A stretch of 56,476 bases of DNA, from assembly GCA_025362495.1 (NCBI GenBank), contig JANYGI010000097.1, positions 1 to 56,476 on the forward strand, given 5' to 3'. Shown one piece after another: positions 1,465-29,767 of this stretch. The position numbers and the translations under genes are program-made. The number at the start of each line of letters is the position of its first letter. The first letter of the stretch is position 1. The notes under the pieces were generated by a model that was not told the origin of the DNA, did no database searches, and saw nothing but the letters and a program-made list of their open reading frames with translations. The DNA is from Byssovorax sp. GTDB lineage: Bacteria > Myxococcota_A > Polyangia > Polyangiales > Polyangiaceae.

Positions 1465-1487
1465 CCGGAGCGATCTACCAAAAAAAA

Positions 1488-1513
1488 CCGCCCGAGCGGT
1501 GAGGCTCGGGCGG
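1488..1513 (-). terminator. Rho-independent terminator-like hairpin with A/T tract
   Basis: A perfect 10-bp stem (CCGCCCGAGC at 1488-1497, GCTCGGGCGG at 1504-1513) closes a 6-base loop. Eight A's at 1480-1487 become a U8 run for minus-strand transcripts, and CTTTT follows on the plus side. It lies only 16 bases upstream of the GTG of the membrane protein. It would therefore end any transcript arriving from the right before that gene, acting as an insulator or leader attenuator. Confidence 0.6.
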
Positions 1514-1598
1514 CTTTTCGCACTTCGCGGGGCGTCGACGGGCGCGGGAAAGGACGTCTACCACTCGACCAGGGACATGGAAGGCTCACCGAACTCGC

Positions 1599-1682
1599 CG
1601 GTAGCTCACCCCTCCGCGCGCGTACGGAACCGCGAACGGCGAGGTTGTCCCAGGCCGTCGCGCGCGGAGGGGTGAGCTACCG
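1599..1682. repeat. Perfect 24-bp inverted repeat with 36-bp spacer
   Basis: The arm at 1599-1622 begins CGGTAGCTCACCCCTCCG and is matched exactly, reverse-complemented, by 1659-1682. The spacer is 36 bp. There is no T-tract, so it is not a typical terminator. Open frames crossing it on either strand both end in the same kind of peptide (AHPSARxR...RAEG), as expected from a palindromic element rather than a gene. It may be a dispersed REP/MITE-like repeat. No other copy occurs in this window. Confidence 0.7.
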
Positions 1683-1928
1683 ATAGCGACGTTCTGGAAC
1701 AGCCTTCCTTGTGAAGGATGCGAAACGAATTGCTCGGGCGGCGCAACGCCGCCCATGGTGCAGAGCACCAAGCTAGACTCGTGTCCTCGCGGCCCGCAGA
1801 GAGCTGCTGCGCGCTCTGCCATCCGCTGTTCCCGCGTTGTGAAAGACCATTCGAGGCCACCCTCGAAGTGCGTCGACGGTGGTATCACGAGCCGTTCCGG
1901 TTGGAAACGAAATCATTCGGGCCTCGAA

Positions 1929-2216
1929 ATGACGCGAAAAGAGCTGATCGAAAGGGTGCGCGCGGGCCTCGGGGACGAGGCGCTCGGCGATCGCCAGGTG
2001 GCGGCGGTGATCGACCGCGTCTTCGAGGAGATCGCCGCGTCGCTGCGCGAGGAGGGCCGCTACACGCACCCGGGCTTCGGCACGTTCACGGTGCGCGTGC
2101 AGGCGGCGAAGACGGGCCGCAACCCCCGCACCGGCGAGGCGATGGCCCTCGACGAGGGGCGCACCGTCGCGTTCAAGCCCGCGCCGGATCTCAAGGGCTC
2201 CTTGCCGCGCGAGTAG
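1929..2216 (+). CDS. HU/IHF-family DNA-binding protein
   Basis: This encodes 95 residues, the usual size for HU. The N-terminus MTRKELIERV is the helix that starts HU/IHF proteins. The beta-arm region shows the family signature HPGFGTFTVRVQAAKTGRNPRTGE and the C-terminus reads VAFKPAPDLK, matching the V-x-F-x-P-x-x-x-L-K end of HU. The start at 1929 is chosen because the homologous sequence begins there, although the frame is open further upstream. HU proteins bind and bend DNA as dimers and organise the nucleoid. The stop codon directly abuts the stop of the convergent Cys-rich gene, with no spacer. Confidence 0.93.
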   Translation: MTRKELIERVRAGLGDEALGDRQVAAVIDRVFEEIAASLREEGRYTHPGFGTFTVRVQAAKTGRNPRTGEAMALDEGRTVAFKPAPDLKGSLPRE

Positions 2217-11597: not shown

Positions 11598-11618
11598 CTG
11601 GACCTGCTGCGCTCAAGA

Positions 11619-13244
11619 TCAGCCGGCGAGCAGGCTCTCGATCTCGCGCAGCGTCTCCGTGTCGTCGCCGATCATCTCCTTCATCGACTGGATCCGACCG
11701 GCGACCACGCGGGCGATCTTCTCTTCCACGGTGGCGTCGGCGTACGTCCAGTAGACCTGGGCGAAGCGGCCGTCGCGGTGACAGCGGCCTTCGATCTGCG
11801 CCATCTGGATCGCGGACCAGCGGAGATCGTGGATGATCTCGGAGCGGGGAGCGTCGTTGTGCTCGCCCTGGTGGAGCGATATGCCCTCTTCGACGGTGAA
11901 GAGGATCACGCGCGCCACGCCCTTCTGGAAGCGGAGCCGCTCCTGCTCGCGCGCGGCGGCCGGGATGCCGCCGTGGATCGCCGCGCACGGGACGGCGCCG
12001 AGGCCACTCTCGAAGGCTTCGCGCAGCGCCGTGAGCGTCTCGACGAAGGCGACCGATATCGCCACCTGGCGGCCATTTTCAAGCAAATCGCGCGCGAGGT
12101 CGACCGTGCCAGCGGCCCGGATGAGCGAGCTCTTCTGGCGGAGGCGCAGGATGGCGGCGAGCGCCGATCGCGGGTCCTTGCCGCGCGGCAGAAGGTCGAA
12201 CTCGCGGCGGAAGGCCGTCCACGCATCCTCGTAAAGCGCGCGGGCGTCGGGCGCGAGCTCGACCGGCGTGAGGATACGATTGATCGCGGGCCAGCCGGCG
12301 ATGTCCTCGGGGCGGCGGCGCAGGCCGGCGGGGCTCTCGCCGGCGCGCGGGGCGTCGAACAGCAGCGCTCGTACCTTCGCGCAATCCGCACGATCGCCGC
12401 GCCACTCCCATTTACCGAAGGTGCCGCGGGTGACGCCGAGCTTCTGATCGATGCACCACTGTTCGAAGGCCTTGAGATCCTTGGCGCGCGCGCCGGTGGC
12501 CGAGGCGAGGACCGGGGCGAGATACGATAGCTCGAGGGGATTCTGCCCCGCCGTGGCCGAGAGCCAGAGCGTGAATCCGGCGCTGGCGACGAGCTTCGCG
12601 GCGAGCTTGGACCGCGCGGCCGTGGGGTTCTTGCAGCGATGGCTCTCGTCGAGGACGACGACGTCGGTGTCGGGCGCGGTGCCGGCGCGGGCGAGCCCCT
12701 TCTTCGAGCGGACCTTCTTGCGGGCGGCGTCGCTGAGCTCGAACAGCTTGCCGAGGCGCTCGTAATTGAGGACGACGATCTGCTTGGCGCCGTCGCCCAT
12801 CGCTTCGATCGTGCGGCGCCAGTGGGGCACCACGCTGAGCGGGCAGACGATCAGGACGCTCTCGACGTCTCGCATCTCGAGGATCGCGGCCCAGGTGGAG
12901 AGGGTTTTGCCGAGGCCGACGTCGTCGGCGAGGAGAAAGCCCGGGCGGCCCGCGGCGCGGGCGGCGACGATCGCGCGAACGGCCGAGACCTGGTGCGGCC
13001 GGAGCTGGAGCGCGGAGGCAGCTTTGCGGACAGGCGCGGGAGCGGCCCCGCCCGAGAGCTCCTGCTGCACGCGCATCTCCCACGAGTACGGCTGGGCCCG
13101 GAACGGGGCGAGCGCGCGAGGGACCTTTTGCCCCTCGTAAACGAACACGCCGTGAGAGGCGTCCCAGCGGGCGGACTCCGCGGCGGCCACACCGCGCAAC
13201 GCAAAGGGCACATCGAGAACGAACGCCGTCATGACGACGCGCAT
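11619..13244 (-). CDS. SNF2/DEAD-like superfamily 2 helicase
   Basis: The protein has 541 residues from the ATG at 13244 (a TTG at 13256 and an ATG at 13232 are alternatives). It reads LRPHQVSAVRAIVAARAAGR, then Walker A LLADDVGLGKT (about residues 104-114), motif Ia LIVCPLSVVPHW, motif II LDESHRCKN (DESH instead of DEAH, residues 199-202) and motif III WLSATAGQNPLEL. The C-terminal half carries the second RecA lobe, with VARVILFTVEEGISLHQ and QIEGRCHRDG as motifs V/VI. This is the core of small SNF2-type, SMARCAL1/ZRANB3-like or phage-type helicases without accessory domains. It is an ATP-dependent DNA translocase whose role here is unknown. Its 3' end carries one copy of the 36-bp direct repeat. 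Confidence 0.87.
   Translation of the reverse strand: MRVVMTAFVLDVPFALRGVAAAESARWDASHGVFVYEGQKVPRALAPFRAQPYSWEMRVQQELSGGAAPAPVRKAASALQLRPHQVSAVRAIVAARAAGRPGFLLADDVGLGKTLSTWAAILEMRDVESVLIVCPLSVVPHWRRTIEAMGDGAKQIVVLNYERLGKLFELSDAARKKVRSKKGLARAGTAPDTDVVVLDESHRCKNPTAARSKLAAKLVASAGFTLWLSATAGQNPLELSYLAPVLASATGARAKDLKAFEQWCIDQKLGVTRGTFGKWEWRGDRADCAKVRALLFDAPRAGESPAGLRRRPEDIAGWPAINRILTPVELAPDARALYEDAWTAFRREFDLLPRGKDPRSALAAILRLRQKSSLIRAAGTVDLARDLLENGRQVAISVAFVETLTALREAFESGLGAVPCAAIHGGIPAAAREQERLRFQKGVARVILFTVEEGISLHQGEHNDAPRSEIIHDLRWSAIQMAQIEGRCHRDGRFAQVYWTYADATVEEKIARVVAGRIQSMKEMIGDDTETLREIESLLAG
11624..11659. repeat. Right copy of 36-bp direct repeat
   Basis: It matches 8452-8487 at 35 of 36 positions and encodes the final residues of the helicase on the minus strand. 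The distance between copies is 3.17 kb. Confidence 0.75.
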
Positions 13245-16781: not shown

Positions 16782-16800
16782 ATCTTCGAGCAGCGGAGTG

Positions 16801-16863
16801 CCTCCGTTCCTCCCGTTCCCGTTCCCGTTCGCCCGGTCCGGGAACAGGAACGGGAACGGAGGG
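16801..16863. repeat. Imperfect inverted repeat built from CGTTCC units
   Basis: The left arm 16801-16830 is made of repeated CGTTCC/CCCGTT units. The right arm 16840-16863 (GGGAACAGGAACGGGAACGG and onward) is its imperfect complement, giving a long GC-rich stem about one base from the RT stop codon. It could be a minus-strand terminator or the msd-like stem of a retron RNA. Confidence 0.5.
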
Positions 16864-16864
16864 C

Positions 16865-18181
16865 TCAGGGAGCAGCGCTGTCGAGCGCCGCGAGCTGCTT
16901 CAGCAGCTTGGCCCCCAGCAGCGGATCCGTCATGTAGATGTACGCGGCATACCCGCTCAGCCGAGCCACCGAGTCGCCCGCCTTGAGCGGTTTGCCGTGG
17001 CTGGCGTTGTGGATCGCGGCGCGGATCTCCCGCTTCATCTCGCGCGGAACGCGGGGCGCGCCGCTGCCATTCACCACCAGGCCCGTGACCTTCTGCCGCG
17101 ATCCAGAGCGGGTGATCCGCGTCTTCTTCGGATGGACGCGAAACCCTTCGTCGACCGCGACGCGGCCGATCGATCCGAGCAGCGCGCCGAGGCGCGGCCC
17201 GGCCTTGTGGGTATCCGGTAAGCTGAACGTGAGGTCGTCGGCGTAGCGCGTGTAACGCCAGCCGAGCTTGGCCGCGAGCGCCGTCAGGCGGCGATCGAGG
17301 CGCAAGCAAAGCGTATTGGTGAGAGCGGGGCTGGTCGGCGCGCCCTGCGGGAGGCAGCGCGGGCCGAGGGCGACATAGTACGTCTTGCCGTCGCGTTCGA
17401 CGATCTCGCGCGGCGCCTCGGTGCAGAGGAGCGCCATCAACGTGGCCACCTGATCGCGGTAGCCGGCCTTGCGGAAGATGCCTTTGGCGCGACGGAAGGT
17501 GACGGTCGGGAAGAAGTCTTTGAGGTCGACCTTGAGGATGATCTTCGAGGCGACGTGCGCCGCGGCGTTGGTGGCGATGGAGCGGCCGGCGAGGAACCCG
17601 TGGCTCTTGCCGTGCACCGGGAGGCGCTCGACGACGTGCTCGAGGATCCAGCGCTGAGCGGCCTTGAGCTTCGGTAGAGGGGCCCAGATCGCGCGCTCGG
17701 AGCCGTCGCGCTTGGGGATCGTGAAGCGGCGGTAATGAATGCTCTCCGCCGCGTCGCGGTGGAAGGCCAGCCAGCGCAGCTCGGGGATGGTGAGGCCGAG
17801 CGCCTCGGCGAGCTTCTGGGGCTTGTCAATCGGCGGGAGATCGTTCTCGGCGGCGCGCTCCTCGGCGCTCGCGTGATCCCATTTGTCGAAGTCGAGCTCG
17901 TCGGACCAGAACAGGCCCTCGCCCTCGCCGAGGTGGACGACGTGCGTCTCGCGGTACGCGAGCCAGGTCTCGCGCTTGAGCCGACGGCGCTCGGCGGCCT
18001 CTTCCTTGAGGCTCTTCTTGTAGGCCGCGAGCTCGGCCTTGCTCAGGTCGTCGGTCTTCTTCCGCTCGAGGACGAAGCCGCGGGTGCGCAGCTCTTGCTG
18101 CACGTAGGCGTTGACGCCGCCGGCCTGGCCGATGGCGCGCCAGAGGTCGAGGAGGCGCTCGGAGTTCGTTCGCGTCGTCAT
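16865..18181 (-). CDS. Retron-type reverse transcriptase
   Basis: The protein has 438 residues from the ATG at 18181. The first 140 residues are a charged, helical extension (KKTDDLSKAELAAYKKSLKE), as in long myxobacterial retron RTs. The RT core has retron-specific NAAAH (205-209), the catalytic Asp in KVDLKDFFP (Asp219), QGAPTSP (279-285), YADD (313-316; Asp315 and Asp316 catalytic) and the retron hallmark VTG in KVTGLVVN (365-367). NAXXH and VTG together separate retron RTs from group II intron, DGR and Abi-type RTs. Such enzymes use a structured RNA as primer and template to make msDNA. The gene is last in a four-gene operon and starts 5 bases after the SWIM gene stop, so there is no room for msr-msd directly upstream. 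Confidence 0.92.
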   Translation of the reverse strand: MTTRTNSERLLDLWRAIGQAGGVNAYVQQELRTRGFVLERKKTDDLSKAELAAYKKSLKEEAAERRRLKRETWLAYRETHVVHLGEGEGLFWSDELDFDKWDHASAEERAAENDLPPIDKPQKLAEALGLTIPELRWLAFHRDAAESIHYRRFTIPKRDGSERAIWAPLPKLKAAQRWILEHVVERLPVHGKSHGFLAGRSIATNAAAHVASKIILKVDLKDFFPTVTFRRAKGIFRKAGYRDQVATLMALLCTEAPREIVERDGKTYYVALGPRCLPQGAPTSPALTNTLCLRLDRRLTALAAKLGWRYTRYADDLTFSLPDTHKAGPRLGALLGSIGRVAVDEGFRVHPKKTRITRSGSRQKVTGLVVNGSGAPRVPREMKREIRAAIHNASHGKPLKAGDSVARLSGYAAYIYMTDPLLGAKLLKQLAALDSAAP

Positions 18182-18186
18182 CGGGA

Positions 18187-20118
18187 TCAGCTCGCGCTCG
18201 CGTCGAGGAAGCCGCGTTTTTCGAGGTCGTCCACGCGCGCGAAGTAGGCGGCGCGGGCGTCGTCGATCGAGTTGAAGAAGAGGCTCTGGACGCGCGCGTC
18301 CTGCCCGCGCAAACCCCAGCGGACCTTGAGGCGCTTCTGATCGAGCGCGAGCTGGTAGACGTCCTCGCCCTTCACGTGGCGGCGAGCGTAAGTGCGGGTC
18401 TCGATCGTGACGCGATCGCGATCCTTGCCGCGCTCCTTGCGGCGCTTCACCTCTTCGCGCGCTTCGAAGAGCCGGAGCGCGATCAGGTGCTCGCACGGGC
18501 CCTCCTTGAGCTGGTGCTTGCGGAAGAAGGCGCAGGTGCACTCGGCCTTCTTCACGCGGCCCTCGTCGTCGAGGAGGAGCTCGGGGCGGTACTCGCGCTT
18601 CTCGGCGGCGACGGTGATCTTGCCCGTGAGCTCGAGGCCGACGCCGTGGATCCGGTTCTCGGTGGCCACGCGGACGACGCCTTTCTGGGCGCAGAGATCG
18701 TGGGCGCGGCGCTCGCGGACGTTGCGAAACTCGAAGCGCGACGGATCGAGCGGCTCGCCGGTGAGCGGGCGGTACCGGTAGATCTCGCTCGCGACGTCGA
18801 ACATCAGCTTGCCTTGCTGGCAGCCGACTTGAAGGGCTTCCAGCGCCTCGGCCGGGGAGAGCTTGGTTGCCTTGGCGATGGCCTCGGCCGAGCCCGACCA
18901 GGTCTTCGCGAGGTGGGCCGTGACGCGCTCGGCCGCGGCCGAGTCGGCCCGGCGCGGGAGCAGCAGATCGAAGCTGACGGCCTGCGCCCAGTTCGCCGAG
19001 GTGAACCCCGAGAGGCCGAGCGTGAAGGTGAACGCGCCGGCGCGGAGGACGTAGAAGCTCGGCAGCCCCGAGCCGAGGATGTGGACGTCGATCGCGTCGG
19101 CGAAGGGCAAGAGGCGGCGCAGCAGCATCAGCCGGCGGCGCCCCCAGATGCGGACGACCTCGGGCTTCGAGCCCTTGAAGACGCCGGCGGTCGTCGGGAT
19201 CACGACCTCCCACGGCTCGAGGACGAGGCGCGGAGCTTCGCCGGGGACGAGCTCGATCCGCATGCCGCGGCCGCCGCGCTTCGGCTTCGCGCTCTTCGCG
19301 GCGCCCGGCGTCGGCGTGGGCACGTCGGCGTTGAGGCGGAGGTGCCGGAGCACGTTGTAGAGATCGATCGGCGCGAGGCGGAACGCGGTGCGCGGCAGGG
19401 TGCCGGCCGACTGCACCTGGAGGAAGCCGCGCAGCCACGCGTCGGGCACGCGGACCTTCTTTTCGAGCACTTCGGGAACGCCGGTCGTGGTGAGCGCGAC
19501 CGCGTGCGAGGCCACGGCGAGGCGCGTCTCGCGGTAGCTGCGCATGCGCTGCACGCCGCCGAAGAGCTCGTCGCTGAAGTCGATGTTGGTGGTCCCGAAG
19601 ATCGGGCTCGGGTCGGGCTCGAGCGCCGAGAGATCGACGCCGAGCTTGGCGTAGCTACCCTCGTCCTTGCTGAAGACCTCGAAGAAGATCTCGTCGGGGT
19701 GGACCGAGACGATCGGATCGAGGAGCGCGAACGCCAGCGGATCGTTGCGCTGCAGCCAGTCGACGTAGGCGCGCTGGGCCTCCCAGAGATCGAGCCCGGC
19801 GGAGGCCTTCTTGAGGCGCGTGTACGCGAGGTACGCGGTGCGATCCTTCGGGACGTAGCGGAAGTCGCTCTGGACGACGTCGTGGAGCGCGGAGAGCGCC
19901 TCGCGGAAGCGGAGCGGATCCTTGATCTTGCCGCCGCCGCGGACCTCGCTGCGGTGGACGTTGCCGAAGAGCGCGACCGTCGCCGCGCCGGCGTCGGCGA
20001 CGACCTGGCTCGCGCCCGCGTAGCCGAGCTCGACGTCGGTGCGCGGCGCGACGACGTCGTCGCCCTCGGCCGCCCTGGGATCCGTTCCCTCGGGAGATGC
20101 AGGGGTTTCGGTGCTCAT
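18187..20118 (-). CDS. Winged-helix/SWIM/WGR-domain protein
   Basis: The protein has 643 residues. The ATG at 20118 overlaps the previous gene's stop (ATGA). Residues about 1-400 are unassigned, with a basic linker near 268-286 (GAAKSAKPKRGGRG). Residues about 405-450 (SGSAEAIAKATKLSPAEALE, then V-G-C-Q-Q-G-K-L-M-F-D) look like a winged helix. Zinc ligands C527-x-C529...C542-x-H544 (ECTCAFF...GPCEHLIAL) form a SWIM finger. The C-terminus 575-640 (VYQLALDQKRLKVRWGLRG, then FFNSIDDARAAYFARVDDL) resembles a WGR domain, with W601-G602-L-R604-G605. SWIM and WGR modules bind nucleic acid or DNA ends; WGR is known from PARP-type nick sensors. In the operon this is the likely nucleic-acid-recognition partner of the RT. 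Retron systems that pair an RT with 'WHSWIM' and ARM/HEAT proteins have been described; this one adds WGR. Confidence 0.85.
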   Translation of the reverse strand: MSTETPASPEGTDPRAAEGDDVVAPRTDVELGYAGASQVVADAGAATVALFGNVHRSEVRGGGKIKDPLRFREALSALHDVVQSDFRYVPKDRTAYLAYTRLKKASAGLDLWEAQRAYVDWLQRNDPLAFALLDPIVSVHPDEIFFEVFSKDEGSYAKLGVDLSALEPDPSPIFGTTNIDFSDELFGGVQRMRSYRETRLAVASHAVALTTTGVPEVLEKKVRVPDAWLRGFLQVQSAGTLPRTAFRLAPIDLYNVLRHLRLNADVPTPTPGAAKSAKPKRGGRGMRIELVPGEAPRLVLEPWEVVIPTTAGVFKGSKPEVVRIWGRRRLMLLRRLLPFADAIDVHILGSGLPSFYVLRAGAFTFTLGLSGFTSANWAQAVSFDLLLPRRADSAAAERVTAHLAKTWSGSAEAIAKATKLSPAEALEALQVGCQQGKLMFDVASEIYRYRPLTGEPLDPSRFEFRNVRERRAHDLCAQKGVVRVATENRIHGVGLELTGKITVAAEKREYRPELLLDDEGRVKKAECTCAFFRKHQLKEGPCEHLIALRLFEAREEVKRRKERGKDRDRVTIETRTYARRHVKGEDVYQLALDQKRLKVRWGLRGQDARVQSLFFNSIDDARAAYFARVDDLEKRGFLDASAS

Positions 20119-23100
20119 CGCGATGCCTCCCGCGCGGCCGCGGCTTGCTCGGTCTTCTTCTTCAGGTAGCGATGCCCGCGGCGGAGCGCGCGCCACGCGG
20201 CCTTGCGGAGCTCTTCGTCCTCGGCCTCGTCCTTCGCGAGGGCGAGGATCGGCGCGAAGGCCGCGTCGGTGGCGATGCGCGCTAGCGCCTCGATCGCGCC
20301 GAGCCGCGTGGCCTCGGGCAGCTTGCGGTCGGTGAGCGCCGCGGCGAGGCCGGCGACGTCGCCGCCCTCGACCAGCAGCGGGAGCGCGACGCCCTGGGTG
20401 TGGACCTCGAGGGCGGCGCCGCGGAGCGCGACGAGGGCGCTCTGCGGGTGCCCCGCGAGGAGACGGCGGAGGCTGTCGCGATCGTCGAGGAGACGCGGCG
20501 CCAGCGCGGCGGCGCGCTCCGGCGCGAGCTTGCCGATCGCCCCGGCGGCGATCTCGCGCTCGCGACCGTCGTTGCCGACGGCGGCGGCGGCGAGCGCGTC
20601 GAGGCCCGGCGCCTTCGCGAAGCCCGACGCCAGCGCCGTCAGCGCCGCGACGCGCACCGGCCGCGCGTGCCCGTCGTCGCCGCCGAGCGAGGCCGCCGCG
20701 ACCACCTCGGCGTCGCCGATCTCGAGCTTGCCGAGCGCCTCGACGAGGCGGCGATAGCGCGCTGTCGCGGCCTCGAGATCGACGTCGTCGCGATCGATCT
20801 CGGCCCGCGCTTTGAGCCAGCCCGCGGCGGCCTTCTGCGCGGCCGCGATGACGCCCTTGCCGTGGGCCTTCGCCGCGGCCTTTCCAGCGCGCGCCACGAT
20901 CTGCGCGGCGACCTGCGCCACGCGCTCGTGCACGCTCTCGAGTCGCGCCGCGGCCGCGTCGAGGGGCAGCGGCGATCGCGCGAGCAGCGCCGCCGTGAGC
21001 GGGCGAACGAGCTCGTCCTCGCGCTCCTCGGGGATCTTCGGGAGCAGGTCGAGGATCCGCGCCGCATCGCCGCGCTCGCGGAGCCGCTCGACGGTCCGCG
21101 GCTCGAGGTCGCCGTACGCGGCGCAGGCCAGCGCGTAGTCGGGCTCGAGCGAGTCGTCGCCGTCGAGCTTGCGCAGGCTCTCGGCGGCCCTCCTCGCGAC
21201 GCGGTAATCGTCCTCGTTCTCGAGGCGATCGAGGAGCGCCGCGCGGCTCGCGGGATCGGGCGAGTGAGCGAGGATCTCCGCTACCTGGAGGCGGATCTGA
21301 GCGTCGTCGTCCTTCGCGCGATCGCGCACGAGGCGCCAGCCTTCGAGGCTGTCGAACCAGCGCAGGCCGGCCAGCGCCTGCCGCGCGACGCCGCCGTTGC
21401 CCGCGGCGAGGCGGAGCAAGATCGCCTCGATTTGTGGGCCTTTCGGCGTGGCCTTGAGGTGTCCGATCGACTCGGCGGCCTCTTCCTGGAGGGCGTGGCC
21501 CGCCTCGTTGACGAGGCGCAGGAGCGGATCGAGGCCGCGCGGATCGGCGAGCTTGCCGAGGGCGCGCACCGCGCGGCGGCGCTCGTCGAGCTCGGGGAGC
21601 AGATCGATCCCGGTGAGCAGGACGCGGATGCCGTCGGCGCGTCCCGCGAGCGCGAGGCTCTCGGCCGCGAGGAGCTGCGTCGACGGGCTCGGGTGCGAGA
21701 GCGCGGCGACGAGCGGCTCGGCGGAGCCGCCGCGCTTGCGCAGGCGGAACCCGAGGGCCTCCACGGCGCGGTCGCGGACGTCGTCCTTGGCGAACGTGGC
21801 GAGCGGCGTGAGCGCGACCTCGACGGCGCGCGACGGCGCCCAGCGAGCGGCCGGGAGGAGCTGCCCGAGGAGCGCGGCGTCACCGAGGCGGTAGGCCGCG
21901 TCGAGCAGCTGCGCGAGCACGGCGTCGTGGCGCGGGTGCGGCTTCTCGCCGGCGAGCTCGGCGCTCGCGCCCTCGAGCTCGGGATCGTGGATCTCCTGAT
22001 CGTAGCCGCTCACGGTGAGCAGCGCGCCGAACGCGCCGCTGCGCTTCTTGCGATCGTCGAGGTACGCGAGCAGGCGCGGCGCGATCGCCGGGAGGCGGAA
22101 CGCCGCGGCCGCGGACAGCAGCGCGCTCGTCATCGCCGTGCCCGCGGGATCGCGATCGATCCGGTCGAGCAGCGCGTCGGGCGCGCGCGGATCGCCGAGG
22201 CGGCCGAGCGCCTCGATCGCGCGCCGCTGCGCCTCGCCGTCGAGCATCGTCACGAGGGCCGCGAACGCCGCGGGATCCTTCTTCCCGGCGAGCTCGATCG
22301 CCACGCCCTCGCGGACGTGGCCGTAGCGTGAACCGAGCGCGCCGCGGAGCGCCTTCTTCACCGCGTCGCTGCTCTCCCAGAGCTCGGCGAGGCCGGCGAC
22401 GGATCGATCGCGAACGCCCGGCGATCGCGCGAGCAAGCCCTGCTCGTGCACCGTCGCGGGCACGACGAAATCGAGCAGCAGCTTGCCCGCCTCGTCCTGG
22501 AGGCCGTCGGTCGTGACGAGGAAGACCTGCTCCAGCACCTTGCGGCGCTGCGCGGCCTCGCCTCCGGAGGCGAGGAGCGCGAGGCCCATCGCCCCGACGT
22601 CGCGCTGCCCCACCGCCAGCGCCTCGGCGCCGAGCTCGGCCGAGGGCATGCCGATCGCGACCAGCGTGTCGAACCCGAGCTTGCGCACGGTGGCCACGGG
22701 ATCGCCGAGCGCGAGCAAGAGGAGCGGCAAGATGCCTTCTCTTTCGCCCGGCGCGAGGCGCGCCATCTCCGCGAGGCGGGCGATCGCGGTCAGGCGCACG
22801 CGCACCTCGAGCGCCCCGCCGACCTGACGCGAGAGGCCCGCGTAAGCGCCCGTGACGACGCGGCGAAGCTCGGCCTCGGCGTACTCGGGGGCGGCCCGCT
22901 TGCGCTTCTTCGCGGCGGCGAGGAGCGCGTCGATCGTCGACGCGAAGCGCTGCTGGTAGATCGCGAACGCGTGCTCGAAGCGGTCCTGCTTCTCGTCGTC
23001 GAGGGCGTCGAGGAGCCTCGCCGTGCGGACCTTGAGCTGCGGATCGCCGAAGGTGAGCGCCTCGGCGAGGATCCGCGCGGTGTCGCCCGGGATCGTGAAC

Positions 23101-26100
23101 GCCCTGGCGTCGTCGCCGCGATCGTTGAGCAGCTCGAGCACGAAGGCCGTGAACGCCGCGGGATCCGCGAACGACTCGAGGGCCCGCGCCGCCGTGAGCC
23201 GCACGCGCGGGTGCGACGACGACAGCGCCGCGAGGCACCGATCCGGCGCGCCGTCTTGCTCGCTCGACTCGATCAGCATCATCGCCAGGAGGGCGCGGCT
23301 GCGGACCTTCTCGTCGCCGTGATCGAGGTAGGCCATGAAGAGATCCGCAGCCGTTTCGCCGAGCGCGATCGAGGCCGCGAGCCCGCGGAGAGCGAGCGGG
23401 GCGGCCGCCGTGACGAGCCCCTTGAGAATCGGCAGGCCAGCCGGATCCGCGGCGGCAGCGAGGCCTAGCGCGGCGTCGCGCGCGAGGTCGGCGTCGGAGG
23501 CCGCGAGCGCGTCCTTGAGGGGCGCGAGGTCCCCGTCGGGGCGCGCGACGCCGCCGAGCGCCTCGACCGCGGCGCCGACGATCCGCTTGTCTTTGTGGGT
23601 CGCGAGCGCGGCGATGGCCGGCTGCGCTTCTGGCGATCCCAGCTCGCCGAGGGCGCGGAGCGCGCGCGCCACGCGATCGATCCAGGCCTCGCGCTTCTCG
23701 GCGAGCTCCGGCTCTTTCTCGGTGACGAGGCCGAGCAGCGGGGCGAGCGCCCTCGGATCGCCGAGGATCGCGCGGGCCGCGGCGGCGCGGACGCGCACGT
23801 CGGCGTGCGGGCTCTCCATCGCGGCGGACGCCTCGTCGGCGAGCAGCGCCAAGGCCGCGGCTATGCGGACCTTCTCGGCGTCATCGCCGAGGGCCTTCTC
23901 CAGGAGCGCCCGCGCGCCGTTGACGCGGCGCTTCGCGATCACCTCGATCGTCTTCAGCTTGAGATCGACGTGGCGCCCCGCGAGCGCGGCGGCGAGCGGC
24001 TCCGGCGCCTTGCCCTTGCTGCGCTTCTGCGAAAAATCGAAGGCCTCGCCCCGCACGCCCGCGTCGGGATCGCCGAGGATATCGAGCAGCAGCGCGGCGG
24101 CCCACGGCTCCTGGATCCGGCCCATGACCTCGTTCAGCACCTCGCGGCGCACCTCGGCGTGGACGCTGCGGAGCGCGAAGCGGAGCGTGGCTGCGCCTCC
24201 GCCGCCGATCTCGATCGCCAGCGCGGCCTTGAAGGCCTCGCCGCGCACGGCGCCGGCGGAGTCGTCGAGCGCGCGAGAGAGCAGCGCCGCGGCCGGCGCC
24301 GCGAGATCCTTCGGCGGATCCTTCTTGAGGACGCGGACGAGGAGCTGCAGGGCGCGGCCGCGCACGTCGGCCTCCGGCGCGAGCAAGCCCGCCTCGGCGG
24401 CGCGCAGCGGGGTCTGCTCTTCGAGCTTCGCCAGTGACGAGAACGCCGCGTCGCGCACCTCGCCGGCGCCGTCGCGGAGGAGCTGGCGCAGGCGCGGAAG
24501 GCCGCGTGCATCGCCGAGATCGGCGAGGGCGCGGCAGGCCTCCACGCGCGCGCTCGGCTGCTTCTCGTTGGTGAGCTGGAGCAGCGTCCCGAAGGCGCGC
24601 TCGTCCTGGAGCGAAGCGAGCCCGCGCGCGCCGGCGAGGCACGTGTCGAGCGCGCGGCTCGCCATCGCCTCCAGCAGCGGGCGGAGATCGGCCTCGACGA
24701 GCGTGGACGCCTCGGGCCTGGCCTTCTTCGACGTGGCCTTCGGCTCCGCGGTCGCGGCGGCCCTGGCGCGTGACGCCCTGGTTTCGGCCTTGGTTTCACC
24801 CTCGGCCACGGCGGCCTTCTGCCCGAACGTCGCGAGCTCCCCGAGCTTCGCGGCGAGATCGCGATCGCGCGCGCCGAGCGCCCCGGCCAGCGCGGGGCGC
24901 GTCATCAGCGACACCAGGAACGCCGCGCGGCGCACGTCCGCGTCGGGATCGCCCTCGTGACGACGGAGCGCGGCGAGCACCTCGGCCTCTCCGAGCAAGT
25001 GCCGCTGGAACGCGCGCACCAGCGCGAGGCGACGGATGTCGGCGCGGCGCGATCGCAGGGCGATGATCACGGCCTCGGCGCTGGGCGCGGGCAGCAGCTC
25101 TTCGAGCCCTGCGACGGCCGCGGCGCGCACCTCCACGGGCTCGTCGTCGAGCGCCTGGACGAGCCGCGCCATCGCCTGATCGTCGGTCTTCGCGAGCGCG
25201 GTCAGCGCCGTCACCGCGGCGGCGCCGACGTCGCGCTTCTTCGCGTCGAGGCCGAGCTCGAGCGGCCGCAGCGAAGCTTGCCCCTCGTGCGCGCGCAGCC
25301 CGGCGAGGGCCGCGAGCCGCACCTGCTCTTCGCCCGCGGTGAGCAGCGCCTCGAGGGGCTTCACGGCGCGCGGGTTCTTCGTCGCGCCGAGCAGCGTCGT
25401 CGCCAGCGCGCGCAGGCCGTGATCGGCGTCGCCCGAGGCGCGCGCCGCCACGATCTCGATCGCCCGCGCGTCGTCGTGCGCCGCGAGCGCGCGCAGCGCG
25501 GCCTCGCGGCGCTCGGGCGCGCGCTCCTCGAACGCGTGCTCGGCGAGCGCGTAGGCATCGCGCACGATCAGCGAGCGCTCGTTGACCTTGCCGCCTGTGT
25601 CGAGCGGGAAGAGGCGGATCGTCGCGTCCTCGGCGAGGACCGCGAGGTGGGCTCGCCCCTTGTGCTCCACGCGCATCAGCGCGACGGCGTTGCCGACGCC
25701 GTCCTTCAGCGTCGACGGCCGCTTCTTCGGCCCGCGGGTCCAGGTCTTGATCGTCCCGTCGCGGCCGCCCGTGTAGAGCTTGTCGTCGAGGCCGACGCCG
25801 ATCGCCGTCGGGGCGCCGTCGTGCGCGGAGCCGCCGGCGCGATCCTCCGGCTCGAGCTCGCCGCGCACGTGCGTGAGCAGCAGCTTGCCGTCGGATCCGC
25901 CCGAGTACACCCGCGGCTCGTCGGGATCGAAGAGCAGCGCGGTGACCGCGCCCTCGTGGATCTTCTTCGACGAGGCGCCGATGAAATCGCGCCGCTCCTC
26001 GCCGTCGAAGACCGCGATCGTCCCGCGCGACGTGCCCGCGACGAGCCACGCGCCCGGGGCGTCGGCCGCCAGCACCGTGCCCGCGTCCGGGAGCGCGAGC

Positions 26101-26495
26101 GTCTGCAAACGCTTCCCCTTGGCTCGATCGACGATCACGATCGACGCGCCGGAGATCGCCGCGAGGCGCCCCTCGGAGAGCACGGCGAGCGCGACCGGCG
26201 CGGGATCGAGCGCCTCGCCGAGCGGCGCGAGATCGCCGCCGTCGGCCTTGCCGCGATGGATTCGCCCGTCGGTCCCTGCGACGAACACGAAGCCGTCGGC
26301 CTCGACGATGGCGACGGCGCCGCCCGGGAGCCCGTCCTCGTCGAGGTCGCCCTTGTCGAGATCGAGGCGATACACCGCGGTGGGGCGGCCCTCCGGGTGC
26401 ACCGTCACGAAGACGAGCACGTGCTTCTGCGCGAGCCCGGCCCGGAGCGCACCCCGGAACGACGCGTACCTGTCAGCGGTGGTGTCGGCGCTCAC
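20115..26495 (-). CDS. Giant WD40-HEAT repeat protein (2126 residues)
   Basis: I place the start at the GTG (26495) overlapping the upstream stop (GTGA), giving VSADTTADRYASFRGALR; the frame is open 23 codons further. Residues about 10-320 form a beta-propeller: repeated DG-x-L/I...GG-x-DG motifs such as RVYSGGSDGKLLLTHVRG, KLYTGGRDGTIKTWTRG and ATIRLFPLDTG. From about 340 to the end are dozens of HEAT/PBS-lyase-like helical repeats (RALAAHDDARAIEIVAARAS, EVRAAAVAGLEELL, PEVQVREA-type units) with D-x-x-V-R-x-A-A signatures. No enzymatic motif is visible. It should be a very large scaffold that could wrap a partner or nucleic acid. It is coupled at both ends to neighbours in the RT operon. TIGR02270-like ARM repeats were noted in some retron systems; this is far larger. 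Confidence 0.85.
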   Translation of the reverse strand: MSADTTADRYASFRGALRAGLAQKHVLVFVTVHPEGRPTAVYRLDLDKGDLDEDGLPGGAVAIVEADGFVFVAGTDGRIHRGKADGGDLAPLGEALDPAPVALAVLSEGRLAAISGASIVIVDRAKGKRLQTLALPDAGTVLAADAPGAWLVAGTSRGTIAVFDGEERRDFIGASSKKIHEGAVTALLFDPDEPRVYSGGSDGKLLLTHVRGELEPEDRAGGSAHDGAPTAIGVGLDDKLYTGGRDGTIKTWTRGPKKRPSTLKDGVGNAVALMRVEHKGRAHLAVLAEDATIRLFPLDTGGKVNERSLIVRDAYALAEHAFEERAPERREAALRALAAHDDARAIEIVAARASGDADHGLRALATTLLGATKNPRAVKPLEALLTAGEEQVRLAALAGLRAHEGQASLRPLELGLDAKKRDVGAAAVTALTALAKTDDQAMARLVQALDDEPVEVRAAAVAGLEELLPAPSAEAVIIALRSRRADIRRLALVRAFQRHLLGEAEVLAALRRHEGDPDADVRRAAFLVSLMTRPALAGALGARDRDLAAKLGELATFGQKAAVAEGETKAETRASRARAAATAEPKATSKKARPEASTLVEADLRPLLEAMASRALDTCLAGARGLASLQDERAFGTLLQLTNEKQPSARVEACRALADLGDARGLPRLRQLLRDGAGEVRDAAFSSLAKLEEQTPLRAAEAGLLAPEADVRGRALQLLVRVLKKDPPKDLAAPAAALLSRALDDSAGAVRGEAFKAALAIEIGGGGAATLRFALRSVHAEVRREVLNEVMGRIQEPWAAALLLDILGDPDAGVRGEAFDFSQKRSKGKAPEPLAAALAGRHVDLKLKTIEVIAKRRVNGARALLEKALGDDAEKVRIAAALALLADEASAAMESPHADVRVRAAAARAILGDPRALAPLLGLVTEKEPELAEKREAWIDRVARALRALGELGSPEAQPAIAALATHKDKRIVGAAVEALGGVARPDGDLAPLKDALAASDADLARDAALGLAAAADPAGLPILKGLVTAAAPLALRGLAASIALGETAADLFMAYLDHGDEKVRSRALLAMMLIESSEQDGAPDRCLAALSSSHPRVRLTAARALESFADPAAFTAFVLELLNDRGDDARAFTIPGDTARILAEALTFGDPQLKVRTARLLDALDDEKQDRFEHAFAIYQQRFASTIDALLAAAKKRKRAAPEYAEAELRRVVTGAYAGLSRQVGGALEVRVRLTAIARLAEMARLAPGEREGILPLLLLALGDPVATVRKLGFDTLVAIGMPSAELGAEALAVGQRDVGAMGLALLASGGEAAQRRKVLEQVFLVTTDGLQDEAGKLLLDFVVPATVHEQGLLARSPGVRDRSVAGLAELWESSDAVKKALRGALGSRYGHVREGVAIELAGKKDPAAFAALVTMLDGEAQRRAIEALGRLGDPRAPDALLDRIDRDPAGTAMTSALLSAAAAFRLPAIAPRLLAYLDDRKKRSGAFGALLTVSGYDQEIHDPELEGASAELAGEKPHPRHDAVLAQLLDAAYRLGDAALLGQLLPAARWAPSRAVEVALTPLATFAKDDVRDRAVEALGFRLRKRGGSAEPLVAALSHPSPSTQLLAAESLALAGRADGIRVLLTGIDLLPELDERRRAVRALGKLADPRGLDPLLRLVNEAGHALQEEAAESIGHLKATPKGPQIEAILLRLAAGNGGVARQALAGLRWFDSLEGWRLVRDRAKDDDAQIRLQVAEILAHSPDPASRAALLDRLENEDDYRVARRAAESLRKLDGDDSLEPDYALACAAYGDLEPRTVERLRERGDAARILDLLPKIPEEREDELVRPLTAALLARSPLPLDAAAARLESVHERVAQVAAQIVARAGKAAAKAHGKGVIAAAQKAAAGWLKARAEIDRDDVDLEAATARYRRLVEALGKLEIGDAEVVAAASLGGDDGHARPVRVAALTALASGFAKAPGLDALAAAAVGNDGREREIAAGAIGKLAPERAAALAPRLLDDRDSLRRLLAGHPQSALVALRGAALEVHTQGVALPLLVEGGDVAGLAAALTDRKLPEATRLGAIEALARIATDAAFAPILALAKDEAEDEELRKAAWRALRRGHRYLKKKTEQAAAAREASR

Positions 26496-29400
26496 GCGGC
26501 TACTTTCGAGGGCTGGGGCGCGGCCTTTCGAGCCGCGGCGATCCGGGTCAGGGCGACGAGGCACGCCGCGCGCTCGCTCGCGCCGCGCGTGGCCGAGAAC
26601 TCCTGGAGCAGCGGCTCGATGACGTCCGCGAAGGCGAGATCCTCGACCGCGAGATCCCGGAGCGCCTCGACGAGCGCGAGCTTGGCTTTGCGCGCGGGGA
26701 TGGGCCGCGTCCGCGCGACGGGCGCGGCCTTCGGCGCGGGCTTGCCACCCACGGCCTTTGCCGCCTTCGCGGCCTGCGATTTCATCCGACCCGGCGACAC
26801 CGTGAAGAGGATCCGCCGCAGAAAATCGCGGAGCGCATCGTCACCTGCCGGACGCCCCGCCGGGCGCTGCGGCGGCCCCGCCGGCGGCGTCACGGCGGCG
26901 ATCTTCTTCGCGGCGTCGAGCTTCTTGCCGACGGTGATCTCGGGCTTGGGCGCCGGCTTCCAGTGCAGCGTGATCCCCTTGTCGCGGTAGAGCGACCACA
27001 CGGTGCGGATCACGAACGAGCGCACCTGCCGATCGGGGCTCTCGGTGAGGCGGAACAGCTCCTCCGGGATTGCCAGCCGCGGGTTCAGGCCGATGAGCCG
27101 CATCCCGAGCGCGCGCGTCTCGGCGTCGAGCGACTCGCAGAAGCGGTACACCGCGTCGGCGGTCAGCGCCTCGGGCGGCATGCGGTAACGCGCGTGCTCG
27201 CGCTCTTCACCGACGGTGAGAGCCTTCGCGAGGAAGTCGCGCACCTCGGCGTACGGCGCCTCGCAGAGCTCGACCACGGCTTCAATTGAAGGCTTCCAGC
27301 GCGCGAGCTCCCAGCGCGCGAGCTCGAGCGCGAAGGCGCGGATCGGCTCGCGCGGATCCGAGAACAGCGGCCGCACGCGATCGAACGTCAGGAACGCGGC
27401 GGGCATCTCCGCGCCGGGATCCACCGGTCGATCCGTCTCCGCGAGGCTGATGTCCGGGTGGTGCCGGCGGATGTAGCGCATCGCGAAGAGCCGCAGCGGC
27501 GCGTCGACGGGGCCGGGCTCGGTCGCGAGGGTCCAGAGCCGGAGCGCGCCCTCGGTCACCGTGTCGGCGGAGAACGTCCGCTGCTCGCCCGCGAGCATCT
27601 GCAGGAACGCCGTCTCCGAGATGATCTTGATCGGCGCGCCCTGACCGACGAGCTTCTCGGCGTCGACCTGCTTCGAACCTTTTCGCCCTGCGCCGTAGAG
27701 CGGCGACCCCTCGTCGCCGATGACCAGGTAGTCGAGCTTGGCGTTGACGCTCGACGCGTTCTTGCCGTTCGCACCGGTGACCTTCTTCGTCGCGTCACCG
27801 CGCTGCATCGTCGCCAGCTTGCCGGTGAACAGGAAGCTCTGGCCCTCGAGATCGATGGTCGCGGGCGCCGCCTTCGCGGCCTCGACCGGCCTGGGCTCTT
27901 CCTTCTTCGGCGCGAAGTCCGCCGGCAAAAAGGCCTTGATCATGTACTCGACGGCGAAGTCTGCGTACTCCTTCTCGCTCCTCGCCGCGAGCTGCATGAG
28001 CCAGTCGAAGCCGAGCTCGCCGGGCGAAAACTTGCGCACGTCGCTCAGCAGCTCGAGCGCCAGCGTCGACAGGCGCGGGCTCCACGCGAGCTCCTTCGCC
28101 CACGGCCTCCCCGAGGCTTTCAGCTCGTTCACCCACGGATCGGCGTCCCACGTCGGGCGGAACGCGAGGGCGCGCAGCAGCGGCGCGCCGAGATCCTTGG
28201 CCTTGATCCGCTCTTCCTCGATCCAGCCGGCGACGGCGCTGCTCGTGAGCGGATGGACCAGCACGCGCCGGAGAAAATCGCCGTCGAGATCGCCTTCGGG
28301 GAAGCGCGCGAGCGCGTCGAGGGCGAAGCGCGCCGCCGACGACGTCAGCCGCGGATCGTCGAGCAGCCCCTGGAAAAAGGATGCGCCGAGGGCCCTGGGC
28401 GCGTGGATCTTCGCGAGCAGATCCGACGCCAGCTCGAACACCTCGTCGCTCTCCGAGAGCAGCCGCTCGGCGAACCACGCCGGGGTGAGCTCCTTCGCGC
28501 CGAAGTACTTGCGGATCGCCGCGGCGGCCTGCTCGTGGCCGTGATCGGTACCGAGGAGGCGCCCCCAGCCGTCGAGGCCGATCTCTTTCCTCGGATCGCG
28601 ATCGGCGAGGAGATCGCGCGCCACCTTGCGGACCTCGTCGCTGTCGTTGTTGGCGAGGCGAATCAGCTCGTCGAGCGAGAGATCGCGGGCGTGCGTGCGC
28701 GCGTACGACGCCGCGTATTTGCGGGCGTCGTCCGACGGCGAATCGAGGAGCGCGATCACCGCGGCGTGGAGCCCGAGCTCGCGGAACGCGCCTTGCTCGA
28801 AGCGCGGGACGTTGGCGAAGAGCCAGATCACGAAGTCGTCGACCTCGGAGCTGCCCACCGCGACGAGGCGCGCGGCCCACGCCGGCTCGACGTCGCGGAG
28901 CTGGGCGCGAAAATCCGTCTTCAGGGCGGCGACGGCGAAGCTCCGGGCTTGATCGGATCGCGCGCGCTCCAGCAGCGTGAACAGCGGCCGCGGCGTGCGG
29001 CGCCAGAGGTCGGCGTAGGCGCGGTACTGCGTCAGGCTGCTGGTGCGGCGATCGAGCTTGAAGCGCCGCCGGGTGAACTTCTTCGTCTCGTGAAAGACGA
29101 TGTGGTTGAAGACCCACGTGCCGAGCCAGCGCACGCCGCCCGCGTCGTAGAAGCGCAGCACCGAGGACGCCGCGTCGGCGTAGGCCGCGGGCAGCGTCTC
29201 GGCGCAGCGCCGCAGGTTGCGCCAGACGCGGCGCACGAGGTAGCCCAGCGTTTTCTTGCTGATCTCCCGCTGGAACTGGCCCCCCATCGAGAACGCGGCA
29301 TCGAATCGGGCCGCGAGCGCGCCCTGCATCTCCCAGTCGCCGCGGGCCTCGGCCTCCTTGAAGATGCGCTTCATCGCGCGCCACGGGCCCCACGCGAGAT

Positions 29401-29767
29401 GGATCTTTTCGATGATCCGGATCAACGTGTCGCGCTCGAACGCGCCGTCCGCGGCCCACAGCTCGAGCAAGATCCGATCGAGCCGCATCCGGTCCGGGAG
29501 GTCGGCCTCGGCGCCCTTCGCCTCGAGGGCCTTGAACCCTTCGATGCGACGATGCCGCTGCTCTTCCGGTGTCTTCTTCAGGAACTCGCGGCCGCGCAGC
29601 TCCGCCGTGAAGACTGGAAGCGTCAGCGCGGTCTCGCGCGCAGGCGCGTCGCTCTCGCCCGGCGAGGCGTCGGGTTGCTCGCCCAGCGCGACGATCAAGT
29701 CGGCCAGATCGCCGTCCCTTGCGTCCCACGCGCGGCGCACGTCCTCGAAACTGAGCGCTCGTTCCAT
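26492..29767 (-). CDS. HEAT-repeat protein with internal BRCT domain
   Basis: The protein has 1091 residues from an ATG at 29767 with GGGGA upstream. It is helical throughout, with HEAT-like units (VRKVARDLLADRDP, SSAARFALDALARFP, REPIRAFALELARWELARW). About residues 638-728 form a BRCT domain: IDLEGQSFLFTGKLATMQRG, then ATKKVTGANGKNASSVNAKL, DYLVIGD...GRKGSKQVDAEKL and IKIISETAFLQML, close to the NAD-ligase/RFC1 type that binds DNA ends or phospho-residues. A basic Pro/Ala linker follows (GPPQRPAGRPAG; KAAKAVGGKPAPKAAP), then a short helical end. It is the first gene of the operon and is probably transcribed from the 150-base gap to the divergent deacetylase. I recognise the domains but not the whole protein. 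Confidence 0.85.
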   Translation of the reverse strand: MERALSFEDVRRAWDARDGDLADLIVALGEQPDASPGESDAPARETALTLPVFTAELRGREFLKKTPEEQRHRRIEGFKALEAKGAEADLPDRMRLDRILLELWAADGAFERDTLIRIIEKIHLAWGPWRAMKRIFKEAEARGDWEMQGALAARFDAAFSMGGQFQREISKKTLGYLVRRVWRNLRRCAETLPAAYADAASSVLRFYDAGGVRWLGTWVFNHIVFHETKKFTRRRFKLDRRTSSLTQYRAYADLWRRTPRPLFTLLERARSDQARSFAVAALKTDFRAQLRDVEPAWAARLVAVGSSEVDDFVIWLFANVPRFEQGAFRELGLHAAVIALLDSPSDDARKYAASYARTHARDLSLDELIRLANNDSDEVRKVARDLLADRDPRKEIGLDGWGRLLGTDHGHEQAAAAIRKYFGAKELTPAWFAERLLSESDEVFELASDLLAKIHAPRALGASFFQGLLDDPRLTSSAARFALDALARFPEGDLDGDFLRRVLVHPLTSSAVAGWIEEERIKAKDLGAPLLRALAFRPTWDADPWVNELKASGRPWAKELAWSPRLSTLALELLSDVRKFSPGELGFDWLMQLAARSEKEYADFAVEYMIKAFLPADFAPKKEEPRPVEAAKAAPATIDLEGQSFLFTGKLATMQRGDATKKVTGANGKNASSVNAKLDYLVIGDEGSPLYGAGRKGSKQVDAEKLVGQGAPIKIISETAFLQMLAGEQRTFSADTVTEGALRLWTLATEPGPVDAPLRLFAMRYIRRHHPDISLAETDRPVDPGAEMPAAFLTFDRVRPLFSDPREPIRAFALELARWELARWKPSIEAVVELCEAPYAEVRDFLAKALTVGEEREHARYRMPPEALTADAVYRFCESLDAETRALGMRLIGLNPRLAIPEELFRLTESPDRQVRSFVIRTVWSLYRDKGITLHWKPAPKPEITVGKKLDAAKKIAAVTPPAGPPQRPAGRPAGDDALRDFLRRILFTVSPGRMKSQAAKAAKAVGGKPAPKAAPVARTRPIPARKAKLALVEALRDLAVEDLAFADVIEPLLQEFSATRGASERAACLVALTRIAAARKAAPQPSKVAA

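Follow-up and report, generated by a model that had tools for sequence, protein, structure and literature searches.

Positions 1 to 56,476 of contig JANYGI010000097.1 from Byssovorax sp. (56,476 nt, referred to here as the window) carry a four-gene operon that is, judged by PADLOC family models for all four proteins, a retron of type XIII, together with a separate gene for an msr-msd-like RNA. We consider it highly probable that this is a type XIII retron with its template RNA encoded in trans. This reading is carried by the gene set of the operon, by the lack of any detectable RNA in cis, by the presence, structure and covariation of the unlinked RNA, by the near-exclusive co-occurrence of RNA and operon in the order, and by the conservation of the RNA locus in a second genus. 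In PMC8867640, retrons are described as one unit, with RNA and reverse transcriptase (RT) arising from a single transcript. The features concerned are listed below; genomes, contigs and loci are cited throughout by G, C and L numbers.

16865-18181, minus strand: RT of retron type XIII, last gene of the operon, 438 aa
18182-18186, minus strand: SWIM-RT spacer of 5 nt, which measures 285-367 nt and holds an msr-msd RNA in 15 related operons
18187-20118, minus strand: SWIM protein gene, 643 aa
20115-26495, minus strand: gene of the giant WD40-HEAT scaffold, 2126 aa, GTG start
26492-29767, minus strand: gene of a HEAT protein with a BRCT-like insertion, first gene of the operon, 1091 aa
1544-1797, minus strand: stand-alone msr-msd-like RNA gene, delimited by covariance models, fold and arms
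1797-1774, minus strand: a1 arm, part of the RNA gene
1560-1544, minus strand: a2 arm, part of the RNA gene
1697-1713, minus strand: conserved 5' box CACAAGGAAGGCTGTTC, base of the msd hairpin
1576-1590, minus strand: conserved 3' box GGTGAGCCTTCCATG, which pairs with the 5' box by compensatory changes
1480-1513, minus strand: rho-independent terminator of the RNA gene

The first-pass annotation of this DNA had described four minus-strand open reading frames (ORFs) joined by GTGA and ATGA overlaps, with a 5-nt SWIM-RT spacer, and all of these were confirmed at the coordinates above. The RT matched PADLOC RT_XIII with 545 bits over residues 5-434 (next best, RT_other with 320 bits), the SWIM protein matched SWIM_XIII (PDLC02972) with 630 bits over nearly its full length, and two HEAT-ARM_XIII models matched the WD40-HEAT protein (PDLC02919, 2048 bits over residues 8-2118) and the HEAT-BRCT protein (PDLC02921, 1151 bits, nearly full length). 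A type XIII RT, a SWIM protein and HEAT-ARM partners are thus united in one operon and, since all four proteins gave near full-length matches, the gene set is already known. The earlier suggestion of a distinct or undescribed variant does not hold for the proteins, the giant scaffold included; the system is distinct through its detached RNA, which was not among the reasons given at the time. The RT carries the retron motifs noticed in it before (NAAAH for NAXXH, VTG and YADD), scored 73.2 bits with RVT_1 and had the Ec86 retron RT as its best match in the PDB (E 2.5e-40). NAxxH, YADD and V/ITG were present in 38 of the 39 RTs of the WD40-HEAT subtype, the exception (G447) being cut by a contig. 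Chance adjacency of the RT to its three neighbours had been named as a finding that would speak against a retron. Dozens of genomes show this gene order and these family matches; the neighbourhood is therefore not due to chance, and the four genes are genuinely co-conserved. A GTTCCC inverted repeat (16797-16862), with no T run after it, lies directly 3' of the RT stop.

We then turned to the RNA. A motif scan located both conserved boxes on the minus strand near 1.6-1.7 kb of the window, about 120 nt apart, which is the spacing of cis RNAs. Covariance model R1, built from ten cis RNAs with the window excluded, matched positions 1576-1775 of the minus strand with 122.5 bits (E 2.6e-24); R2, whose training set included the window, matched the RNA core with 146.5 bits. 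The RNA folded far better than shuffled sequences (z -7.57, 0/200), and no Rfam family reached its gathering score in the window. In sequence and predicted structure, 1544-1797 shows a1/a2 arms, an AGC branch site, msr stems and a long msd hairpin. The gene is located between a divergent HU gene and a membrane-protein gene, and no RT adjoins it. Linkage and co-transcription of msr-msd with the RT are lacking, given the 5-nt spacer and an RNA that lies 15 kb from the RT with a terminator of its own. Since the RNA is not linked to the RT, we term the system a variant working like a type XIII retron, not a canonical one.

The structure is supported by covariation. Across 29 aligned RNAs, 96.6% of cells were able to pair and 49 of 68 pairs had changed on both sides. 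The covariation score was 0.747, compared to 0.161 after shuffling and 0.106-0.127 when slid by 1-3 columns, in an alignment fitted to the structure of R1 and hence favouring that structure. Most of the covariation resided in the long stem, where 29 of 30 pairs had changed on both sides. One cis RNA, that of G166 (L152, 3857-4136), contains an internal repeat that includes an N and probably arose in the assembly.

The distribution of operon and RNA was investigated next. In a survey of 80 type XIII loci from named genomes, with ORFs read from stop to stop, the SWIM-RT interval was at least about 190 nt wherever an RT ORF lay downstream, except in L034, L072, L091 and L095. Within the WD40-HEAT subtype, the SWIM-RT gap spans 285-367 nt and holds an obvious msr-msd RNA in some loci, and measures about 60 nt or less in others, among them the window. 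The WD40-HEAT operon was detected in 21 of 183 genomes from the order and in 33 of 377 from the phylum, 8 of which had been counted before; with 2 of 291 from the class to which Desulfobacterales HSG16 belongs, the total is 48. With R1 or R2, an RNA was found at E<=0.01 in 40 of these 48 (20/22 plus 20/26). Sorted by hand, its placement was in the SWIM-RT gap in 15 genomes, directly 5' of the HEAT-BRCT gene in 4 (G183, G666, G447, G454) and within about 1 kb 3' of the RT in 2 (G478, G392). In G222, 4.9 kb separate the RNA from the WD40-HEAT gene that follows on its contig, and the RT is off the contig; in 3 genomes (G068, G234, G247) the operon is broken over contigs; and in 15 the RNA is detached, two of these having it on the operon's contig at 15 kb (G000) and 1.87 Mb (G129). 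G488 has one RNA in the gap and two more 3' of the RT. All 15 gapped operons held the RNA within the gap, as did 0 of 22 gapless ones, 21 of which belong to genomes with RNA elsewhere; the least clear member of the gapless count is G285, with a longer open frame before its RT. No operon protein was present in the stretches fetched around detached copies (up to 1.5-4 kb on each side).

Co-occurrence in the order was close to exclusive. At E<=0.001, R1 matched 19 of the 21 operon genomes (all but G110 and G002) versus 1 of 162 others (Fisher p 1.4e-22, uncorrected for relatedness). The one operon-less genome that it matched, G004, carries both of its RNAs a short way upstream of an RT.

An RT tree of 48 rows placed the WD40-HEAT subtype in one clade of 39 rows (100/100). 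Its clade I comprises 16 RT rows, the window among them (support 99/97), and none of the 16 had an RNA detected in the SWIM-RT interval. Most of clade II has the RNA in cis, the exceptions being G005/G006/G007/G009, G106, G068 and G478. The "far" state of the RNA required 7 changes on this tree, at least 4 of them forced by well-supported branches, in a count that labelled G183 as far before it was moved to 5' of HEAT-BRCT. This indicates that the RNA relocated several times.

Terminators were found in 12 of 25 copies of the clade I type (cut-off -12 kcal/mol). One of these 25 had too little upstream sequence for a swap of a1/a2 partners; in all 24 others the native duplex was stronger than the swapped mean, yet it ranked strictly first in only 9. 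A sigma-70-like pattern, picked after the sequences had been viewed, was present at -55 to -71 (in one copy at -101) in 14 of 23 RNAs, compared to 1.4 (standard deviation [SD] 1.1) in shuffled sequences. The window and G129 RNAs do not have this pattern, and a related one was seen in 0 of 22 other far copies.

The RNA locus of the window is syntenic with that of G129, which belongs to another genus: the HU proteins share 52% and the membrane proteins 65% identity, and 166 of 200 RNA positions are identical. The G129 assembly is a single 16-Mb contig with a listed contamination of 15%. An HU/IHF-like gene adjoins the detached RNA in the window (1929-2216, plus strand) and in G129 (L204, 3646-3921, minus strand) and, in another arrangement, in G485 (L264, 1841-2125, plus strand). 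The membrane gene was found in 31 of 108 genomes of the family; among 20 family loci examined, HU and RNA stood beside it only in the window and G129, and the fetched flanks of the other 18 contained neither, those of L289 reaching only 376 nt upstream. The HU gene as a partner of the RNA is a lead, as yet unproven.

Several points weigh against a template supplied in trans. No RNA was reported at E<=0.01 in 8 of the 48 operon genomes (G110, G002, G371, G297, G289, G325, G353, G461), by models with a bias towards this family of RNAs; in G002 a contig end carries a truncated cis match, and G325 is the gapless genome in which none was found elsewhere. In 13 of the 15 detached cases (G106, G005, G006, G007, G009, G366, G285, G485, G239, G336, G362, G329, G230), RNA and operon are on separate contigs of draft assemblies, which leaves their distance open. 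The search of the window's own genome at E<=0.01 reported only the 1576-1775 match, and such a search can miss weak members, as it left a cis RNA on contig C91 unreported (41.9 bits with R1). Four copies (G239, G329, G362, G230) have another sequence in place of the AGC branch site, and a search for a sigma-70-like promoter before the window RNA found none. In favour of the trans reading is a correlation between the distances of RTs and those of RNAs (Mantel r 0.85 over 29 genomes; 0.61 over the 10 unlinked genomes of clade I, p 0.0002), in a test that left out 7 genomes whose RNA the search pattern missed and was uncorrected for species phylogeny, so that partnership and vertical descent fit it alike.

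We weighed these points along with four other explanations. It is improbable that an old msDNA template left the stand-alone RNA as a dead retrocopy, the origin reportedly proposed for msDNA-like repeats in Nannocystis, and that the RT now works without this RNA or not at all. Dispersed RNAs, sometimes multi-copy in relatives, and copies that are truncated or at contig edges would fit it; however, copies contain elements absent from msDNA (the msr, the a1/a2 arms and often terminators), their stems covary, the RNA locus is conserved in two genera, and gapless RT operons persist with catalytic motifs.

We give just as little credence to an operon with its own cis RNA, from an unrelated family missed by the models, and a distant RNA that belongs elsewhere. 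An 88-nt 5' spacer and a 3' flank do exist, the GTTCCC inverted repeat follows the RT, and no RNA was found in 7 operon genomes besides G002. However, the SWIM-RT spacer is only 5 nt long, and the operon flanks of the window and G129 have no common block longer than 43 nt, whereas their RNA loci share 227 nt at 84%. Moreover, no R2 match in 16 further gapless operon loci or in L072 had an E below 0.11, and genomes of the order that lack the operon almost always lack the RNA as well.

A second type XIII RT of the same genome (contig C91, 47% identical) is a very unlikely user of RNA 1544-1797, since it has the cis RNA of 41.9 bits just upstream, and the detached RNA is of the WD40-HEAT subtype and occurs at E<=0.001 in no operon-less genome of the order but G004. 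Hardly any weight is left for an ordinary type XIII retron with an unremarkable rearrangement in one strain, which would agree with a protein set already in PADLOC but not with 0 of 16 clade I RTs having an RNA found between SWIM and RT, nor with the relocations that clade II adds.

One copy of the RNA is known in the window genome, and some related genomes have 2-7. G005, G006, G007 and G009 gave 7, 5, 6 and 4 matches, one in G005 being weak (33.6 bits) and several in these four genomes being cut by contig ends. Five copy pairs between G005 and G007 share flanks at 72-89% identity, three of them on the upstream side only. In three orthologous pairs (C239/C81, C344/C15, C232/C2), the stem sequence is entirely different yet paired, and the msr is alike; in two others (C413/C95, C275/C29), the stem is kept. 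Our guess is that copies exchange entire hairpins, so that both arms change together. Tandem arrays, each of three RNAs with differing stems, were also seen: L254, L263 and L269 in G454, L191 in G006, and L257, L265 and L268 in G247.

A multi-template retron may tentatively be proposed from these copies, though we hold it for less likely than its opposite: one RT-clamp operon would serve several unlinked msr-msd genes with exchangeable stem cassettes, and the msDNA repertoire would act as decoys or sensors for different invader enzymes. The idea that stems sense restriction or methylation sites was tried by counting 6-bp palindromes and set aside. Stems of multi-copy genomes had 13 compared to 5.6 (SD 2.3; 7 representatives, p 0.004), but the excess failed in the other 16 representatives (10 versus 10.5) and in 10 cis stems (8 versus 9.4), leaving a weak lead. 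One stem arm compared with phages gave no match, and exact matches to two conserved RNA strings were absent from viral contigs, too small a test to judge whether stems are captured phage DNA. No tRNA that might link to insertion of copies was present in 36 RNA-bearing stretches.

The protein domains were examined in a further step. The SWIM domain proposed for the SWIM protein was supported, with a Pfam score of 19.4 bits at residues 516-548 against a cut-off of 19.6, and WD40 together with 17 HEAT_2 stretches was found in the giant protein, as expected from its description. For the proposed BRCT domain of the HEAT protein, the Pfam score stayed below the cut-off (16.0 versus 21.3 bits); we regard the domain as likely. 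Matches, all below the cut-off, recur at the same position in three clade I proteins (16.0, 18.4 and 12.6 bits in the window, L135 and L205). Nine of 11 HEAT-BRCT homologues examined with Pfam, all nine from clade II, had no BRCT match.

The proposed WGR domain of the SWIM protein is supported by its predicted fold. Pfam missed it in the full-length window protein and saw it in 1 of 17 homologues; once isolated, the C-terminal domain gave weak WGR matches in 8 of 17, with the window below the cut-off. The C-terminal 84 residues (domain at about 570-640, with the motif VRWGLRG) were predicted to adopt a WGR fold (model pLDDT 88.7), which best matched 2ra8 (Z 11.5) and WGR-DNA complexes of PARP2 (Z 8.8). 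An AlphaFold2 model of the SWIM protein (17 sequences, pLDDT 79.8) further predicted a PCNA-like two-domain clamp fold at residues 60-379 (Foldseek E 2.8e-7; VIA Z 15.6, rmsd 2.8, 213 aligned residues). The likeness to PCNA/DnaN sliding clamps is one of predicted fold, as identity to PCNA is 11% and profiles gave no sequence-level match. A winged helix is probable, from weak Pfam helix-turn-helix (HTH) hits in few members. In L148, L234 and L236, the SWIM zinc ligands are lost and the remainder of the protein is kept. Pfam and PADLOC recognised no catalytic toxin domain in the four operon proteins.

As described in PMC8867640 and PMC12548924, retron RTs in general begin copying the msd at a branched guanosine, and the complex of RT, RNA and DNA keeps an effector in check until a phage infects. 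We infer that the present RT uses the detached RNA to synthesise msDNA and that the complex signals upon a phage trigger and probably acts in defence, the first-pass annotation having also considered a DNA-damage response. The operon at 16865-29767 would make the RT, the clamp-like SWIM/WGR protein and two HEAT scaffolds, and the RT most likely copies the msd part of the separately transcribed RNA 1544-1797 (minus strand), taken in trans. The resulting msDNA would contain a stem with about 26-36 bp of duplex. In other proteins, WGR, BRCT and PCNA-like modules recognise duplex DNA and its ends. Here they probably assemble on the msDNA and hold its duplex or ends, and an invader tampering with the msDNA would put the complex into a different state, on the pattern of other guard-type retrons. 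We are least sure of the effector step, because no toxic enzyme domain was recognised in the four proteins.

Among known systems, retron type XIII, a class reportedly due to Mestre et al. 2020, is the nearest: RT, SWIM and HEAT-ARM proteins match nearly over their full length, and cis relatives carry the msr-msd between SWIM and RT. Compared to the type as modelled in PADLOC (RT_XIII, SWIM_XIII, HEAT-ARM_XIII, WGR_XIII), the window has its RNA as a separate gene, a SWIM protein with a predicted WGR of its own, a BRCT-like insertion in the HEAT protein and a giant WD40-HEAT partner. Retron Ec86 (Eco1) resembles it in RT homology (E 2.5e-40) and in the msr-msd RNA plan; its RNA, unlike that of the window, is linked, and its partner proteins differ. 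Scattered msDNA-like sequences in a myxobacterium also link the present system to the repeats of Nannocystis exedens, which, to go by the titles of Lampson and Rice 1997 and Lampson 2002, both cited in PMC6868368, reportedly include msDNA-like repeats and possible retrotransposition. Those repeats may be related copies; here, in contrast, whole RNA genes with arms and covariation accompany an operon without its own RNA.

In the open-access literature subset searched, no account of detached or multiple retron RNAs, of a retron clamp or of the mechanism of type XIII turned up, which does not establish absence from print. Type XIII itself is known, the unusual part is the detached, multiplying RNA, and no priority is claimed. 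If the reading is true, the template RNA can evolve as its own gene, having moved several times and multiplied with differing stems in some lineages. Retron engineering would gain a trans design taken from nature, and the RNAs would form a set whose comparison could show what the msDNA duplex senses. The predicted clamp-WGR architecture is a testable structural hypothesis for type XIII.

Some loci depart from the usual arrangement in other ways. L072, a type XIII locus from Deltaproteobacteria in which no WD40-HEAT gene was recognised, has almost no SWIM-RT spacer (11601-11640), and R2 finds no RNA in it. For the cyanobacterial SWIM_XIII relatives L044, L045, L063, L064, L068-L070 and L080, no RT was recognised in the fetched stretch; it may be lost, distant or off the contig. 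In HSG16, the HEAT-BRCT gene and the RNA (L205, 872-4273) are on another contig than the remaining three genes (L034), and the 3.4 kb before the WD40-HEAT gene contain no HEAT-BRCT gene. G068 has its RT (L150, 1954-3555), its SWIM-HEAT genes (L154) and its RNA (L206, 4088-4286) on three contigs, possibly a three-way split, and an unrelated divergent gene stands upstream of the RT.

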